From positions 41,694,976 through 41,758,975 of the forward strand of contig OX381718.1 of assembly GCA_947462335.1 (NCBI GenBank): DNA of 64,000 nucleotides, written 5' to 3'. The translations under genes and the position numbers were made by a program. The notes beneath the pieces were generated by a model. That model worked only from the letters and a program-made list of their open reading frames with translations, was not told the origin of the DNA and did no database searches. Of the stretch, positions 5,630 to 60,385 are shown in pieces. The DNA comes from Harmothoe impar (taxonomy: Eukaryota > Annelida > Polychaeta > Phyllodocida > Polynoidae). The stretch's first letter is position 1, and every line of letters begins with the position of its first letter.

Positions 5630-5737
5630 CCCAGTGGGCACAGAACATTGAATCAATGTTGAGGGATGGTTGTCAATGTTGGTTCAATGTTGATCCAATG
5701 TTGATTCAACGTTGACCTGAACTTTGTGCCCACTGGG
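5630..5737. mobile_element. Family C MITE (CCCAGTGGGCACA ends)
   Basis: The left end CCCAGTGGGCACA and right end TGTGCCCACTGGG are perfect inverted repeats around 108 bp. The interior is made of AATGTTGA/TCAACGTTGA-type repeats. A related copy lies at 41113-41225 inside a family A element. Confidence 0.85.
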
Positions 5738-5790
5738 TTGTTCTCTATTTAACGCTGACAGATGATTGTAGACTTCCTAGATTGTTAACA

Positions 5791-9085: not shown

Positions 9086-9806
9086 CCCAGGTAACAAGAA
9101 ACGTTTGGTTAACGTTGATCAACGTTCACCTTTGGTTGATTGGACTAACGTTTTTTGATTTGCATTATTCTAACGTTGACTTAACGTTTTTGTGGAAAAC
9201 GTGATTTGAGAAACGTTGGTTTAATGTTAAAAACAGTTTGCAAACTAACGTTTTTCAGATAACTCATACTGAACATTGCTCAACGTTTATTTGTGGACTC
9301 AAATCTACGTTGATTTAACCAATTAGCTTAACGTTAGTTTAACGTTTTTTGTAACTCCAGTCCATCTCACCAGGTGGTAGTTTAGTATGTAATGGAAAGA
9401 AAATATTAGCTGCACATCAGTATTTGTCTAATATTAGCTATAATAGTGATACTATATGATATCTTTATCAATACTATAGACGACAATTAGTGCTTGAATA
9501 TAATTTATCTGGGCTAAATATGTTGGTTAAATGATAATATAATGTGTTTATTGGGGTGTGCGGTATGGTAAACACCAATTTTGTAGCTGTATGAGATATA
9601 TGAATAGAAAATGTTCACATAGGTCTGTGAGTCAATACACTGCTCACTTATAAAGGAGTCCACCCATAGTTCAATGTTAATTCAACGTTTATTCAACGTT
9701 GAGTTGAGTCCACGAAATGGAATTAGGTTAGATGCATAAAAAACGTTATTTCACTCTGTAAATGACGTTGAAAGAACGTTAAAACAACTTCAACTTGTTA
9801 CCTGGG
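9086..9806. mobile_element. TIR element with dense AACGTT motif
   Basis: Perfect 13-bp inverted ends CCCAGGTAACAAG (9086-9098) and CTTGTTACCTGGG (9794-9806) enclose 721 bp. The palindromic hexamer AACGTT and close variants recur many times in both flanks (about 9098-9345 and 9670-9790), while the middle is ordinary AT-rich DNA. There is no coding sequence. The 6-bp TIR start and the repeated motif resemble family C but the sequences differ. Confidence 0.85.
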
Positions 9807-12367: not shown

Positions 12368-12643
12368 CAGAGAGTGTTAGGGCCTGACTGCAGTCTGTTA
12401 CGGTGTACCTGGCACCATCTTGAGGGAGTGTTGCCCATCTGTTACTGTCTAGCAAGTAAGGTAGGAATATTCCATATTAAGTTTCAAACAAAGGGCGCCC
12501 CCCCCTCTCCTCCCCCCCCCCCAAACATATGATGGTTCTCTCACCAACATATACCCCCAACCCAGGCAGCTCTAGAAGCAAAGTCCTGGCATCCAAATTT
12601 CGTGGTGGGGAGGGTGTGCTGGGGCATAGTGTGTGTGTAAGGA
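12368..12643. other. Low-complexity C-rich stretch upstream of the LINE
   Basis: It contains two C runs at about 12498-12521 and a GT-rich patch near 12630. An in-frame TAA at 12638-12640 closes the LINE frame upstream. The 5' boundary of the LINE is not visible. Confidence 0.5.
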
Positions 12644-12688
12644 GTGGGTCTGGAGGGCCTGGGGACAAGGGTCTCTTCTCTTAACCTG

Positions 12689-13498
12689 ATGGGATCTGAA
12701 GGCCAACACGTATGCCACCTTAATATTAGAAGTATTTTCTCAGAAGAAACTTTTGATAACTTTCGCATATTTATGAGTAATAAATCTATTGATTGCCTAA
12801 CAATCTCAGAAACATGGCTGAAGGAAAAGGTACCTGACAACCATCTTTACATTGAAGGTTATAACTTCATTCGCCTTGACAGGCAAATTGATAAAAAATG
12901 CGGGGGGCTCATGGCGTATATTAGAGATGATATAACTATAGGCCAAAATCTGTCTGAAATATACAGTGTAAGCGTAGAGGACTTGGAAATGCAAGTATTC
13001 ACAATTAAAAAAGGAAATGACAAAAAGCTAACCATATTCAATGTATATAGGCCACCTTCCGGAAAAGTCAACGTTGCCATTGACACCATTACTAATAAAT
13101 TAACTCATTTCTTCAGATACTATCAAAACAATGAAGTAATAATACTAGGAGACTTTAACATTAATTATAAATTTACAAACGCAGGAGACGGTAAGAAGCT
13201 AAGGCAGAATATGTCAACGTTAGGTTTTAGGCAGCTTGTCAAAGGACATACTCATTTCAACCCAAATGGTGACCCTACTACTATTGACTTGATCTTTACA
13301 AACTCACCACATGTAAAAGAGAGTGACATAATTACCCCTGGTTTAAGCGACCATGAATTAGTATATATGACACGGCAACATATCCATGTCCCTATTGAAA
13401 GCTTATCTTTTAAAGGCAGATGTTACACAAACTATGATACTTATAGTTTCACCATGGGCATAAAAAACTCCAACTGGGAAGAATTATTAACCTGTTAA
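12689..13498 (+). pseudogene. LINE endonuclease domain, ended by a nonsense codon
   Basis: This is the AP-like endonuclease of a LINE ORF2, which nicks target DNA to prime reverse transcription. Numbered from the frame opening at 12644, motifs in order are HLNIRS (25-30), ISETWL (54-59, catalytic Glu 56), RLDR (77-80), CGG (86-88), NVYRPPSG (133-140), ILGDFNIN (167-174), TTIDLIFTN (212-220) and GLSDHELV (233-240, the SDH motif). All expected catalytic positions are present. The frame opens at a GTG after a TAA, and the first ATG is at 12689. It stops at TAA 13496-13498, but the same frame is open immediately downstream and runs straight into the RT, so the stop is a point lesion within a formerly single ORF2. 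Confidence 0.93.
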
Positions 13499-15451
13499 TG
13501 CCCTGAAAAGGCATGGGAGATATATATAACTCAACTGTATTTCCTGTTGGACATAACTTGCCCTATAAAAAAGTTTAACTTCAAGCAAAAAATGAAGCCC
13601 CGGTTAGACCGCCATATTATAACATTATTAAAGGACAAAAACTATGCGATAAATAAATATAGGAAAACTCAGAATATTGATGATGGACGCATATCAGATT
13701 ATCTTCAAGGTTTAGCAAGGGATGCATGCAGAGAGGCCAAGCAGGGATACTTCCAACAAAAGTTTGAAAATAATAAGAAGGACCCCAAGGATTATTGGAA
13801 GGCTATTAACGAGCTAGTAAACCCCCGCCCTCGTAATGTTAAATTTAATTTAATTGACCATAGCAACCAAAATCCAATAGCAGACAAAGACACAGCTGAT
13901 TTTATAAATAACTTTTTTGCAGAGATAGGTTCTAATTTAGCTAAAAATATGACATCCCCATGGACGTATCAGGGAGAGGAGCCGGACAGCACCTTTGAAT
14001 TTATGTCCTGCGATGAAACAGACATCATCCCACTAGTCAAAAAGCTAAAAATAGACAAATCCTCAGGGGTCAACCACATCTCAACAAAAGCCCTCAAAGA
14101 TGCTATGTTAGCAGTTCCATTTCTAATTACACATATAGTAAATTTAGTTTTAAAATCTAACAAATTCCCAACAGTCTGGAAAAAAGCCTTGGTATCCCCC
14201 CTCCCAAAGGGAGGAGACGCCTCAAATGTAAGCAACCTCAAACCAATATCAATATTGCCATTACCATCAAAAATCACGGAAAAAATCATGCACAAGCAAA
14301 TAATCACTTACCTAAACAGAGAAAACCTACTTAATGAAAACCAAGATGGATTTAGGCCAAATAGAAGTACCTTAAATAGTTTAACCAAATTCACAAACAA
14401 TATATATAGAGGACTAAACACTGACCAATGTACAACAGCTATTTTTCTGGACTTCAAAAAGGCATTCGATACTTTAGACCACAAAATTTTATCCAAAAAA
14501 GTAGAAAAAATAGGATTTAACCAAAGTGCAGTTGCACTGGTTACAGACTATCTCACAGATAGAACACGAACAACCAAAGCCAATAACATTACTTCAAAGG
14601 AGAAAATACTAACATGCGGCGTCCCTCAAGGTTCTGTATTAGGACCCCTACTATTTCTACTGTATATCAATGATATACACTTTTCCTTAAATTTCCTTAA
14701 TTGTCAACATTATGCTGATGACACTGTAATATACATAAATCACCCACCTGCTGACCCAACAATAGAAAGGAAAATAAACTTTGATCTTCAAAAAATATCC
14801 CTGTGGTGTTTATACAACAAATTATCACTAAATACAAAAAAGACAAAAGCCATGAACTTCTCTAAAAAAGCTTTAGACCATACCTGGATAAAACCAACAC
14901 TGAAAATTAATGGAGACGTAGTAGAATTTGCCCCTACATACAAATACCTTGGTATGACGCTAGACAATAAACTTAACTTCAAGAGGCATATTGATATTTT
15001 GGAAAAAAGTATTGATTATAAGACATATTTATTTAGGCATGCAAGAGAAAATATGACAGAGAATGCAGCAGTAGATGTTCTCAAAACTATGATTCTCCCT
15101 TTAACAGATTATGGGGACATCTGCTATATGACTGCAAATAAGACTCACTTGCTTAAGTTGCAAAATGCCATAAATAAGGGTCTAAGAACTGCTCTATGCC
15201 ACAGAGGGACTATAATTACTGAAAAACTATTAAAAGTTGCGGAGCTAAATTATCTAGAAGATAGGAGGGAACAGCATCTATCCCACAAAGCATTTCTTCA
15301 GTCGTTAAATATTGATTTAATAGACAGGAGACCCATAAGAACCAGGGCTCATGATGAAAGGTTACTTAAGGTCATCAGGGATCTCTTTCAGAACAACTGC
15401 CGTATCTGTCGGGCCGTCAAATATGTTGCCGATAATGAAAAATCAACTTGA
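13499..15451 (+). pseudogene. LINE reverse transcriptase, same frame as the endonuclease
   Basis: This part copies the LINE RNA into DNA at the nicked target. The frame is continuous with 12644-13495 apart from the single TAA. Numbered from codon 13547, the RT palm motifs are LVSPLPKGGD (215-224), LKPISILP (231-238), NENQDGFRPNRST (263-275), IFLDFKKAFDTLDH (299-312, catalytic Asp 302), GVPQGSVLGPLLFLLYIND (358-376), QHYADDTVIYI (387-397, catalytic Asp 391/392), KLSLNTKKTK (425-434) and YKYLGMTLD (465-473). The Cys-containing tail RDLFQNNCRICRAV after residue 609 is not the native end: it is translated from a 38-bp segment that is the inverse of DNA at 16192-16229 (see finding). No ATG is needed since it is the continuation of ORF2. 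Confidence 0.93.
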
Positions 15452-40981: not shown

Positions 40982-41246
40982 GGATTATAATATATTTGTC
41001 ATCATGATGCACAAGTGCAGCACCGCCGATACTGTATGAGTGCATCATGCCGACCTCAAACCATTATGATGCGTGACAAGTAAATTGCTGATATTGCATC
41101 GGTATCATAAGGATTATGGGCACACAATTCAGTTCGATATTGAATCAACATTGAAATGAACATTGAATCAATAAATTATAGACAAGCAATTATCAATGTT
41201 GATTCAATGTTCTGTGCCCAATGGGATGCCCCCCTTAAAGGGTTAA
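40982..41246. mobile_element. Family A element split by a family C insertion
   Basis: The left part shows TTTGTCATCATGATGCACAA, GTGCAGCACCGCCG and GCATCATGCCGACC. The right part is only GGGATGCCCCCCTTAAAGGG then TTAA (41243-41246). The family C element at 41113-41225 lies between them and replaces most of the right arm. Confidence 0.8.
41113..41225. mobile_element. Family C MITE nested in family A
   Basis: The ATTATGGGCACA left end pairs with the TGTGCCCAATGGG right end. Inside, ATTGAATCAACATTGAA and TCAATGTTGATTCAATGTTC form long inverted arms. It is the same family as 5630-5737, with worn terminal bases. Confidence 0.8.
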
Positions 41247-53950: not shown

Positions 53951-54854
53951 TACACTGCAAAAATGGTGTTTACATCCTAAACATAATCCTAAACACATTC
54001 CTGCCCCGTTTTTGTCCACACAATATGTTTCTAAACATGTTTAGACAAATAATATGTTTAGCTCAGTGCTTAGACATTTATGTGTTGAAAGCAATGCGTT
54101 TAGGACAATGAAGCGTTTAGAATTCAAGAATTTAGCATATTATTGTGTTTATCTGTCAAGTGTCTAAGGATAAACGTGGTGTTCCTAGAGATATATATTT
54201 TTATTATGTTTAGATATTTATATTCAAATAGATAAATAATTTTATTTCTATATAGTGTATCGAAAAGACTTCTAGCAGCCCCCCCCCCCCCCCTTGGGGC
54301 AATATGTGCATCATTATTTCACATAGGTCTCTACTTTAACATAGACACAACCTTGAGTCAATACAACAGACCTTCAGGGAAGATAATGCTTTATCCATTC
54401 TTAGAGTTCTTAAAAGAGGTGTCTATGTAGCAGATGGATCGTCATTGCACCGTAATGTGATATAGCATTCAACCTTTGAATCCTGCAATGTGTATTATTA
54501 TCCTTTTGCATCCCATGCAATTTAGGTTAATTAACTCAGATTTAAGCACCTTTAGATCCACAATAACATGTGAGTGGTTGTAGAAACTACAGTCAAACAC
54601 AGAGCTGCCATCTGGTATATGTTTGATATACTATGATCTAAACACTACATGTTTACATCCTAAACACCAATTTTTCATACTGTTTAAATACTAAACATCT
54701 AAACATATTCAAGGAAACTGTTTAGGCGTTTAGAATAAAAGTGTTTAATTCCTAAACAGAAGGATTCAAAGACACAAACCTAGTAATATGTTTAGACTTT
54801 AAACATGTTTAGACCTAAACATGTTTAAAACCTAAGCACCTTTTTTGCAGTGTA
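53951..54854. mobile_element. TIR element with TAAACATGTTTA-rich ends
   Basis: TACACTGCAAAAATGGTG (53951) is matched by the reverse complement of CACCTTTTTTGCAGTGTA (to 54854), about 22 bp with few mismatches and TA at each edge. Words such as CCTAAACA, TGTTTAG and AAACATGTTTAG recur more than 20 times within about 230 bp of each end (TTTAAACATGTTTAGACC near 54792). The centre (about 54240-54630) is unrelated DNA with a C run. It is non-coding. Confidence 0.9.
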
Positions 54855-56275: not shown

Positions 56276-56506
56276 TTTAACCCCAAAGTGGAGTCATTTT
56301 AGATACCGGGTTGACACTTGAAAGACAGTCACATGACTCACCTCCCTGTGTCTGTGTAGGACTAATGATACAACGCTGGGTACTGGTGTGGGGTAGGAGT
56401 AGGGTTTGCAGAAGGAGGTGGGTACTAAGGGGTCCCTAGGAGCCGAGTAAAGGGGAGGGTGTGTTGTGCGACACGCTAGCTTTGAGCTAAATGACTTGGT
56501 CCATAC
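56276..56506. other. Unassigned DNA
   Basis: No feature recognised. Confidence 0.4.
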
Positions 56507-58016
56507 TATGGCAAGCCTAATGGGTAAACTTCCCTTAATCCTGGTATAAGGGACCAAAACCCTGCTTTTGGGCCCAAAAGCAGGGTTTTGGTCCCTTATA
56601 CCAGGATTAACACCCCTTAACCAGGGTTTAGAGCCCAAAACCCTGGTTAAGGGGCCTTAACCAGGGTTTACAGCCCAAAAGCAGGGTTAAGAGCCCAAAA
56701 GCAGGGTTTTGGTCCCTTATACCAGGATTAAGAGAGTTTACTCATGCATTGTCTAGTTAAACAGGGATTAACATACATAATCCTGGTATAAGGTCCAAAA
56801 TCCTGGTTTAAGTCCTTAACCCTGCTTTTGTCTACAATGTCCGGGTTTGAGCTATACCCAGCTTTTCTCCCAAATACCCATGCATTGTCCCTAAACCCTG
56901 ACTTTGTACACAATGTAGGGGTATTTGTACTTAATCCCATACTTAGTATACCAAATACCTGGTTTAAGTACTAATACCCCTGCATTCTCACAATGCATGG
57001 GTATGATACTACCCCTACATTGTAACAATGCATGGGTACCAGTACCCATACATTGTATACAATGTATGGGTAGTGGAGACCCATGCATTGTAGACAATGC
57101 AGGGGTACTGGTACCCATGCATTGTCTAGAATGCATGGGTACCAGTACCCCTGCATTGTTACAATGTATGGGTAGTGGAAACCCATGCATTGTATACAAT
57201 GCAGGGGTAGTATCATACCCATGCATTGTGTACAAAGTCAGGGTTTTGGACCTTATACCAGGATTATGTAGTCTGCATCTGCTTGTGCAGCTGTACTGAG
57301 GAGGGTATAGGAGGGGCAAGTTCCTTACCCATGCATTGTGACCAATGCATGGGTACTGTAGCGAGTACTCATGCATTGGTCACAATGCAGGGGTAGAGGG
57401 AGACTACCCAGACATTGTTACTAAAACCTGGTTTTTTGGAGTTAATCCTGGTATAAGGGTACATATACCCCTGCTTTGTATAGAATGTATGGGTAATGGC
57501 ACACTACCCATGCATTGTTCACAATGTAGGGGTAAGAGAATGCAGGGGTAGAGTGAAACCCCTGCTTTCTGCAGTAAGCATGGGTAGTGGGACATGTACC
57601 CAGACATTGTTACAAAAACCTGGTTTTTGGGAGTTAATCCTTGTACAAGGGTACATATACCCATGCATTGTGAAGAATGCATGGGTACTGGCACAGTACC
57701 CATGCATTGTCAGTTATACCAGGATTAAGTAGTACATGTACCCAGCCTTTGCTCTACCCCTACATTCTCTAGTTAATCCTGGTATAAGGGACAAAAGCCA
57801 GGATTAACTCCCTTAACCAGGGTTAAGAGTACCTTAACCCAGGTTTTGGTCCCTTAACCTGGGTTTAGGGCCTTATACCTGGATTAAGGTCTCTAAACCC
57901 TGGTTAAGAGAGTTAATCCTGGTATAAGGTCTCTAAACCCGGGTTTTGGGTCCAAAACCCGGGTTTTGGTCCCTTATACCAGGATTAACAGAAGTTTACC
58001 CATTAGGCTTGCCATA
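56507..58016. mobile_element. Large TIR element made of serial palindromes
   Basis: TA plus TGGCAAGCCTAATGGGTAAA at the left is matched exactly in reverse complement at the right (to 58016). Each TIR continues into TTAATCCTGGTATAAGGGAC. A perfect 76-bp palindrome (two 38-bp arms, centre GGGCCC) occupies 56535-56610. The middle third (about 56980-57240, 57330-57560 and 57655-57710) is a run of small palindromes of the form TACCCATGCATTGT / ACAATGCATGGGTA, with a one-base A/C variant (CATGGG versus CAGGGG). The outer thirds use AACCCTGGTTAAG and TTAATCCTGGTATA in both orientations. Frames of up to 161 codons on both strands are read through these repeats and carry no domain. Confidence 0.9.
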
Positions 58017-58629
58017 CCCTCCACCTCACCCACCCACTCGATCAACGCATGCTCCCCTGTCACTCCCCAGTCACAACACCAGAGCGCAGCTACACTCTCC
58101 ATGCCGATACTTGGACCTAATTTAGTGCTTATATGAGGACGGAGAATGTGTTGTGAGAATGAGCACCAGTTGATGAACGTGTGTAAGTATGTTAGATCAG
58201 GTGTTGGCCATTTCTCCGCCATCTTCTGCTGCTGGTATGTAAAGCCTAGACGCTATAGTGGCCATTTCAGGTGATTCTCTTGTCCAGCAACACAATGACC
58301 AACTTACCACTAAGACATGTTCCGTGTTGTTGAAGGAGTCGAGGCAAGACTGACACACTAGTATGACTTCAGTATGGGAAGATGGATTAGTTACATATAG
58401 CTTGTAACATGTTACATTTACAAAAGTTTGTTATGACCAGACTATGCTAGTCCAACAGATGACACCTGGTTGGTAAGGCCGAAAAATGTGTCCTATTACT
58501 GTCAATTATACCCTCCATGTTTTTCCTCTTCACTAAGTATATTCCTGTACAGTGTAGGTATGCTTGTCTCTCACTGCACTAGGTCTATTTTAGAATTGTG
58601 TTTATAGTATCGACTGTATGCAACCCAAA
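58017..58629. other. Unassigned DNA
   Basis: Nothing is recognised apart from a lone TAAGGCCGAAAAA near 58478, identical to the left end of the element at 47150. Confidence 0.4.
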
Positions 58630-59349: not shown

Positions 59350-60385
59350 TACACAGAGAGAAGAAACCGAGTCACAAGGGGAGTCTAGGCTATAAAAAGA
59401 GAGCCAGGGTCCCTTTGGCTCACTTTTCACACTGTCTGACTCCCCCTTCTAACAGCCTTGACTCCTTTTCAATTAGATCAAACAGAGTCCATGTCAGCTG
59501 AGGTGAGTCAATGGTTACCTGGACTCCCTAAGGGAGTCACAGAGGTGAGCATACAAAACGGAAATAGGAAACCCACTAGGTGACACTACTGTACAATGAC
59601 TGTAATGCCATCTAGCATATATGTTAAGAAGCCATCTGACTCTGTTTCTAATCAGAGTCAAGGGTCCCTACTCCCTTTTCTCCCAAGGGAGTCAAACAGT
59701 TGGTTACAGTTAAGCCTGCTAGGTGGTAGCACTATACCTAAAATGGTAATATTCTGCATGCTCAGATCTCTAGATCCATGTTATTTGTGACATTGATAAT
59801 TATGCTGATACGTGTATATCATTGTAGCATCAACATGTTATGTCAGAATTACATTTTATGAAATAATTACAGTTAATTTAAAACTGTAGCATGTGCATGA
59901 TGTATAAGGAATAGACACCCAATTTGTAGCAACATGAGAAAGTTAAATCCCAAAAGCTCATATGTTCCTTTGTATATCAACTAATGTGCTCTGAGGGATC
60001 TTTCTGAGATCCCTCCTCCTTGTGAGGCATTGCACCAACATAATGTAGAAACATCAGCTAGGGAGACAGCTATTGAAATGGTTATATAGAGGGTTAGGGG
60101 GTAGGAATTACCTATAAATTATGACTCTCTATTCCAAAGGAGCCATCCTGTGCCTAGACTCCCTTTCTAAAGGGAGTTGCAGCATAGACCTGGACTCTGT
60201 CTGTAGCAGGGAGTCATAAAAGGGAGTCATTTTGGAGGCAAAACCTGGGCTCTCTTAAGGGAGTCACATAACTCCCTTTTAAGGGAGTCAGGTTCATCAA
60301 GAGAGTCAGAAAGAGAGTCAGAAAAGGGAGTCATTCTGGAGGCAAGCCTGGACTCCCTTTTGACTCGGTTTCTTCTCTCTGTGTA
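59350..60385. mobile_element. TIR element with dense AAGGGAGTCA motif
   Basis: TA plus CACAGAGAGAAGAAACCGAG, then TCA, AAGGG and AGTC, is repeated in reverse complement at the right end, giving TIRs of about 36 bp with very few mismatches. GGGAGTCA / TGACTCCC and variants recur about 30 times in both orientations at 59370-59720 and 60125-60370. The middle (59730-60110) is ordinary AT-rich DNA. It is non-coding. Its left end lies only about 6 bp from the end of a family A copy. Confidence 0.92.

Follow-up and report, generated by a model that had tools for sequence, protein, structure and literature searches.

A 1.5-kb palindromic transposon of Harmothoe impar, likely derived from the ends of 27-44-kb IS3EU-like elements

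Members of the IS3EU families terminate in TA..TA and as a rule duplicate 6 bp at the target (PMC10045372), and the fungal IS3EU families end in TAYGG..CCRTA (PMC12730594); duplications of 6 bp are also described for hAT6 elements (PMC12730594). The soybean CACTA element Tgmt* is 20.5 kb long, and its right border carries 24 subterminal repeats in 732 bp, which can form 12 palindromes and are of the kind bound by TNPA-like proteins; deletion derivatives of CACTA elements are moved in trans if the cis regions are kept (PMC2613891). For the palindromes of bacterial REP/BIME sequences, co-evolution with groups of TnpA-REP enzymes has been reported (PMC8266576).

The repeated 1.5-kb element of the polychaete Harmothoe impar described here shares with IS3EU/GingerRoot elements the TA..TA ends, the 6-bp duplications and, in its long relatives, an integrase-type transposase (PMC10045372, PMC12730594). 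Fungal TET+ IS3EU elements likewise carry another gene on the strand opposite to the transposase, an alpha-kinase gene there and a HECT-like ORF here (PMC12730594), whereas the available text of the IS3EU accounts does not mention palindrome arrays of ~0.7 kb at each end, a size of 27-44 kb or a HECT-like partner (PMC10045372, PMC12730594). Large size, subterminal repeats in serial palindromes and word differences between subfamilies are held in common with Tgmt*, but Tgmt* has CACTA ends and a 3-bp duplication, as opposed to the TATGG ends, 6-bp duplications and integrase-core enzyme found here (PMC2613891). REP/BIME sequences are alike in consisting of consecutive inverted pairs of short palindromic units; they differ in being bacterial and acted on as single strands, and the available text describes no terminal inverted repeats with 6-bp duplications for them (PMC8266576).

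Structure of the element in the window

The window is a 64-kb stretch of H. impar DNA, in which the element occupies positions 56507..58016 (+ strand; 1,510 bp). It is predicted to be non-autonomous and belongs to subfamily a (A dialect) in the alignment of copies described below. The exact terminal inverted repeats and the perfect 76-bp palindrome reported in the initial annotation were confirmed: the left repeat, TATGGCAAGCCTAATGGGTAAA, spans the 22 bp at 56507..56528 (+ strand) and includes the TA, its exact reverse complement forms the right repeat at 57995..58016 (− strand), and the palindrome lies at 56535..56610. The flanks, CCATAC at 56501..56506 and CCCTCC at 58017..58022, share 4 of 6 letters and form no clean 6-bp duplication. 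No further copies of the 22-bp repeat were found in the window, and an ORF that occurs by chance in the element had no match in a protein search.

A left word array (56529..57226) and a right word array (57276..57994) make up most of the sequence, with a central non-repetitive piece at 57268..57325. Inverted 8-mer pairs within 60 nt of each other number 206 in the element, compared with 5.7 ± 3.1 (largest 16) in 300 dinucleotide shuffles, in agreement with the serial palindromes first described. With up to 2 mismatches, 32 of the 33 window sites of ACAATGCATGGGTA (0.81 expected) and all 12 sites of TTAATCCTGGTATAAGG (0.04 expected) fall inside the element. Iterated weight matrices gave 49 inner-type and 36 outer-type hits, partly overlapping, and the orientation of the inner-type hits flips at 34 of 48 steps. 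We used 37 of the 49 inner hits, 12 outer-like ones being excluded by eye, and 34 of the 36 outer hits. The 37 inner words, which resemble TACCCATGCATTGT and mostly alternate in orientation, lie at 56739..57768; the outer words, of the AAACCCTGGTTAAGG and AATCCTGGTATAAGG types, extend over 56537..57986, are densest in the outer 250-300 bp of each side and are often spaced by 20 bp. The A/C variation between arms (CATGGG/CAGGGG) is real, and so are the two vocabularies, outer and inner, although intermediate words bridge them.

The window holds other elements. A second word-array element at 53953-54852 has ends CACTGCAAAAA[T/A]GGTG adjoining TA and words ATGTTTAG/CTAAACAT in both orientations, and a third at 59352-60383 has an exact inverted repeat, CACAGAGAGAAGAAACCGAGTCA, adjoining TA and words AAGGGAGTC/GACTCCCTT. 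At 9086-9806 the inverted repeat CCCAGGTAACAAG surrounds many AACGTT words, with no clear duplication. At ~5637-5740 and 41118-41228, reading by eye showed a pair of short palindromic elements that are related to each other, with CCCAGTGGGCACA-like ends and words of the form CAATGTTGA. A non-LTR retrotransposon with endonuclease (PF14529) and reverse-transcriptase (PF00078) ORFs lies at 12641-15451; the best relative of its reverse transcriptase among the matches listed (120 of 7,854) is 80% identical.

Genomic copies, target duplications and long relatives

We searched the window's own genome (1.51 Gb, 736 contigs) with the element and obtained 318 matches; since 40 of 244 candidates were scored, copy numbers are lower bounds. 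At least 17 near-full-length copies exist, the window copy among them. The 21-mer TGGCAAGCCTAATGGGTAAAC, the core of the inverted repeat, has 94 + 87 = 181 exact genomic sites, compared with 0 + 0 for the reversed control. Among 26 two-ended loci (with the 22-bp repeat matched at up to 4 mismatches, and several end pairs tried at L029-L031), 6-bp direct repeats immediately outside TATGGCAAG...CTTGCCATA are exact in 13 (for example GACGTC, GTCTGC, CTGGGG, TTCGGT, GTCGGA and CGCGTT), have one mismatch in 4 and are lacking in 9, which include the window copy. For the 17 aligned copies, the corresponding numbers are 8, 3 and 6. Because the 6-bp duplications lie outside TATGG..CCATA, the target duplication measures 6 bp and the TA is a component of the inverted repeat; the initial annotation, which had read the TA as the target duplication, is corrected in this respect. 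Its description of the element as transposon-like is borne out by the full-length copies, the inverted-repeat ends and the 6-bp duplications. The genome-wide search and the alignment of full copies that it had proposed were carried out here; the 7 aligned copies of subfamily a are 95-99% identical in aligned columns, which supports the suggested recent amplification.

Some loci show additional features. At L029 and L030, element copies are inserted into each other, and the inner copy of L029 has its own duplication, GCTTTG, adjoining word sequence of the outer copy. The left end of L019 (390-405) is degenerate, and this locus, scored as lacking a duplication, may have one, since placing the end a few bases inward leaves GGCTAG on either side. 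By coordinates only, two exact inverted-repeat ends lie within 63 bp at C2:106118595-106118657, a minimal form, and a second, similar close pair lies at C2:106237136-106237198. In IMG/VR viral contigs, the 20-mer inverted repeat matched two contigs, whose nearby stretches held neither a second end nor words, and these were taken as chance matches; the inner word pair, the outer word pair and the inverted repeat of a neighbouring element had no match there.

Many of the genome matches are half elements, covering query 1-720 or 770-1510. Contig C8 carries a left and a right half in like orientation, separated by 43 kb, in a span of 44.5 kb, and the left array of the window copy (query 1-720) corresponds to the left end of this element, which is 92% identical to the window copy and 97% to the consensus of subfamily a. 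From the positions of the inverted repeats we identified two further long spans, of 30.3 kb on C7 and 26.9 kb on C10. All three spans have the inverted repeats and, from query position 770, the right word array, and their interiors beside that array are alike. A long stretch of the left array was read on C8; on C7 and C10 the left end was compared over 118 bp, where it is 88-89% identical to the element. The outer flanks of the C10 span match exactly over 6 bp (ACCTCC/ACCTCC), those of C7 agree in 5 of 6 letters (CACAGG/CTCAGG), and those of C8 are unrelated, with no duplication. Three further inverted-repeat ends lie inside the C10 span, which thus holds nested insertions and is uncertain in its own length.

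An integrase-core gene lies 6-7 kb after the left half of C8, in two open pieces that we took as exons from the sequence alone. The predicted core matches PF24764 (E = 6e-57) and, more weakly, PF00665 (E = 0.0035), the upstream exon is weakly IS481-like (NF033577, E = 4e-4), and the catalytic residues were read by eye. The integrase piece has three close genomic copies (97-100% identity), all open and one per span, the next match being 56% identical. The predicted integrase is under purifying selection, with dN/dS of 0.13-0.15 for the three pairs among C7, C8 and C10. A neighbouring ORF on the opposite strand is weakly HECT-like (22.5 bits vs. a Pfam cut-off of 23.9), and its three near-full-length genomic copies (100, 90 and 89%) are all within the C7, C8 and C10 spans. 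Three other long spans (13.7, 10.8 and 9.6 kb) contain none of the genomic matches to the integrase piece. Partial HECT-like relatives (55-80%) occur elsewhere in the genome, mostly on C3 (cluster C3:76202705-76798073), where the genome search with the integrase piece gave no match. At C202:43712-46947, a diverged integrase (56%) and a HECT-like ORF (45%) are paired on opposite strands, which suggests a related transposon family.

The short element corresponds to the left and right arrays of the long elements minus their interior, as its halves match their ends, and is likely a non-autonomous deletion derivative of them, with the deletion junction probably at the central piece 57268..57325, the position where the long elements carry their interior. 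The initial description of an element built of palindromes is thus accounted for by two ends of much larger elements joined together. Foldback elements and MITEs are likewise short non-coding inverted-repeat DNA elements, but the interior here is a word array with subfamily dialects, and long gene-bearing relatives were found. Polinton/Maverick elements carry DNA polymerase B and capsid genes beside an integrase; neither gene was found in the ten ORF pieces of the C8 span, the interiors having been read in part.

In their ends (TATGG..CCATA on either side of the window copy and, within the mismatch limit given above, of the 26 two-ended loci), their 6-bp duplications (exact at 13 of the 26 loci and on C10, 5 of 6 letters on C7, none on C8) and the IS3/IS481-kind DDE integrase predicted in the long elements, both short and long elements fit an IS3EU-like assignment. 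The CACTA/EnSpm elements, with CACTA/CAC termini and 2-3-bp duplications, have different ends; what is shared with them is the subterminal arrays of short words able to form palindromes, and this likeness concerns the way of working and does not make the element a member. No transposon paper in the literature searched contained the element's inverted repeat or its words (the inverted repeat gave no paper, the words 13 that were unrelated by title), so that the statement of the initial annotation that no such family is described holds for these sequences but not for the IS3EU superfamily or for arrays of the CACTA type, which are described.

Word dialects and changes in the palindrome arms

The 17 aligned copies, near-full-length loci from L003-L042 chosen to be free of rearrangement, nesting, splits and insertions, fall into three subfamilies, with 7 members in a, one of them the window copy, 6 in b and 4 in c. 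Between a and c, 35 of the 37 inner words could be compared without gaps (those at 57146 and 57216 have gaps in c); the left array is partly rearranged in c, and the alignment there is uncertain. In 22 of the 35 words the same A changed to T at position 10 of TACCCATGCATTGT, while 8 kept A and 5 already had T; positions 2-5, 7 and 9 are unchanged in all 35. When the 45 changes were placed randomly in 100,000 runs, on the assumption that changes are independent, no position reached 22 (largest 15). Spacers next to many of the words are identical between a and c. Several outer words near both ends changed from CCCTGC or CCCGGG towards GCCGGC, and the inverted repeat is identical across dialects.

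The long elements show the same difference. C8 has the A dialect (20 A and 1 T in the left array, 11 A and 3 T in the right), and the right arrays of C10 (11 T, 2 A) and C7 (12 T, 6 A) have the T dialect; among the short subfamilies, C8 is nearest to a/b, and C10 and C7 are nearest to c. Two word dialects, with A or T at position 10, are therefore present in short subfamilies and long elements alike. The integrases of the T-dialect elements C7 and C10 have in common ten identical changes relative to C8 within the N-terminal 43 residues of the reading frame (residues 1 and 2 probably precede the exon), none in the next 149 residues and five in the second piece.

Two-sided changes were found in 15 of the 278 arm pairs between a and c, compared with 4.3 expected; 13 of the 15 lead from one Watson-Crick pair to another, and most are the word shift itself. 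The comparison of a and b adds little, with 3 two-sided arm changes (0.3 expected) of which only 1 goes from pair to pair. Changes that postdate insertion are one-sided in 170 pair cells and two-sided in 3 (2.1 expected), so that single inserted copies are not being corrected. Ongoing conversion between arms, one of the two causes first offered for the close match of the arms, is not supported by these private changes in inserted copies; the arms nonetheless change together between subfamilies a and c.

Fixed changes between a and c affect ~5% of word positions and ~14% of spacer positions, but the single-copy control goes the same way, with fewer changes in words (0.8%) than in spacers (1.3%; p = 0.001), and the low fixed rate in words therefore does not prove selection. 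Between a and b, inner words (3.5%) and spacers (3.3%) are alike. The contrast between fixed and private changes gave p = 0.03 for all columns, 0.48 without gap-adjacent columns and 0.08 in a further test, which makes this a weak test of constraint on the words. Binding-site selection and hairpin-templated copying both remain live readings of the word change.

Origin of the short element and possible role of the words

We consider it probable that the repeated 1.5-kb transposon represents the ends of 27-44-kb IS3EU-like elements, likely joined by deletion, that it would be moved in trans, and that its palindromes are likely a binding array. The integrase would cut at the TATGG ends, and its tail or a second protein of the element would bind the words of alternating orientation in both 0.7-kb arrays, in the way that TNPA binds the subterminal repeats of CACTA elements. 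A deletion derivative that keeps both arrays would stay mobile, moved in trans by proteins of the long elements, which would account for the almost wholly palindromic make-up of the short form. The words are likely docking sites for a predicted mobility protein and may change together through a joint drift of this protein and its sites, with hairpin-templated copying from word to word as an aid. Against this explanation, the helix-turn-helix-like region of the integrase, presumed to be its main DNA-binding part, is like the inverted repeat the same in both dialects, so that the shift in the words is not paralleled there but in the N-terminal tail of the integrase alone. Also against it, the C8 span and the window copy have no duplications and the length of C10 is uncertain.

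The palindromes might instead be a by-product of replication, in which hairpin-paired words are copied by template switching or mismatch correction, unpaired spacers are not homogenised, and nothing binds, a serious competitor that we nevertheless hold to be somewhat doubtful. It explains the alternating orientation and the matched arms, the confinement of changes to words while spacers are kept, and the excess of two-sided changes between a and c, and it agrees with the very strong folding of positions 56970-57240 (271 nt; z = -25.7 for single-strand DNA) and with the loss of significance in the stricter tests of fixed against private changes. Individual words point both ways. Those at 57326 and 57382, paired in one large palindrome, both changed, those at 57342 and 57366, paired inside it, both kept A, and the unpaired variant words at 57405 and 57597 are unchanged; yet the words at 56739, 56875 and 57755, which are in none of the 14 hairpins tested, changed as well, and the neighbours 57658 and 57674 became unlike. 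Nor would copying between paired words lead one to expect six positions (2-5, 7 and 9) without change in 35 words, or two-sided changes that are not in excess in inserted copies.

That the element is a transcribed chain of hairpins, a source of small or double-stranded RNA whose arms are kept for that purpose, appears improbable: the same folding value, computed as DNA, speaks for it, but words outside hairpins shifted too and private changes are uncompensated. No Rfam family was found in the window, a result that neither supports nor excludes a new RNA. A hAT6-type element, for which the 6-bp length of the duplications is as described (PMC12730594), is very improbable, since the ten ORF pieces of the C8 span, which cover the interior in part, gave integrase-core and HECT-like matches and no hAT transposase, and TATGG..CCATA fits the published IS3EU ends (PMC12730594). 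An independent, TA-duplicating MITE family of the Tc1/mariner kind with a novel palindromic interior is scarcely credible, for although the window copy taken alone has TA on both sides, the other copies have the TA inside the repeat and 6-bp duplications outside it, which contradicts Tc1/mariner membership.

Within the explanation by deletion from long elements with word-binding ends, we tentatively raise a further idea, itself rather unlikely: a giant IS3EU-type transposon may have independently evolved a two-part recognition like that of CACTA/Spm, with the integrase reading the ends and a second factor (the integrase tail or the HECT-like protein) reading dozens of palindromic words in both arrays; each dialect would switch its spelling as a whole along with that factor, and would thus mobilise only its own short derivatives.

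For an element that seemed to be made of palindromes, these results show a possible source, the arrays at the ends of a far larger relative. They also provide a natural record in which many copies of one word changed the same letter while the intervening DNA stayed mostly alignable, and this one genome could separate two causes of word likeness, co-evolution with a binding protein and hairpin-templated copying. If the words are indeed bound, the same solution would have arisen in two unrelated transposon superfamilies.
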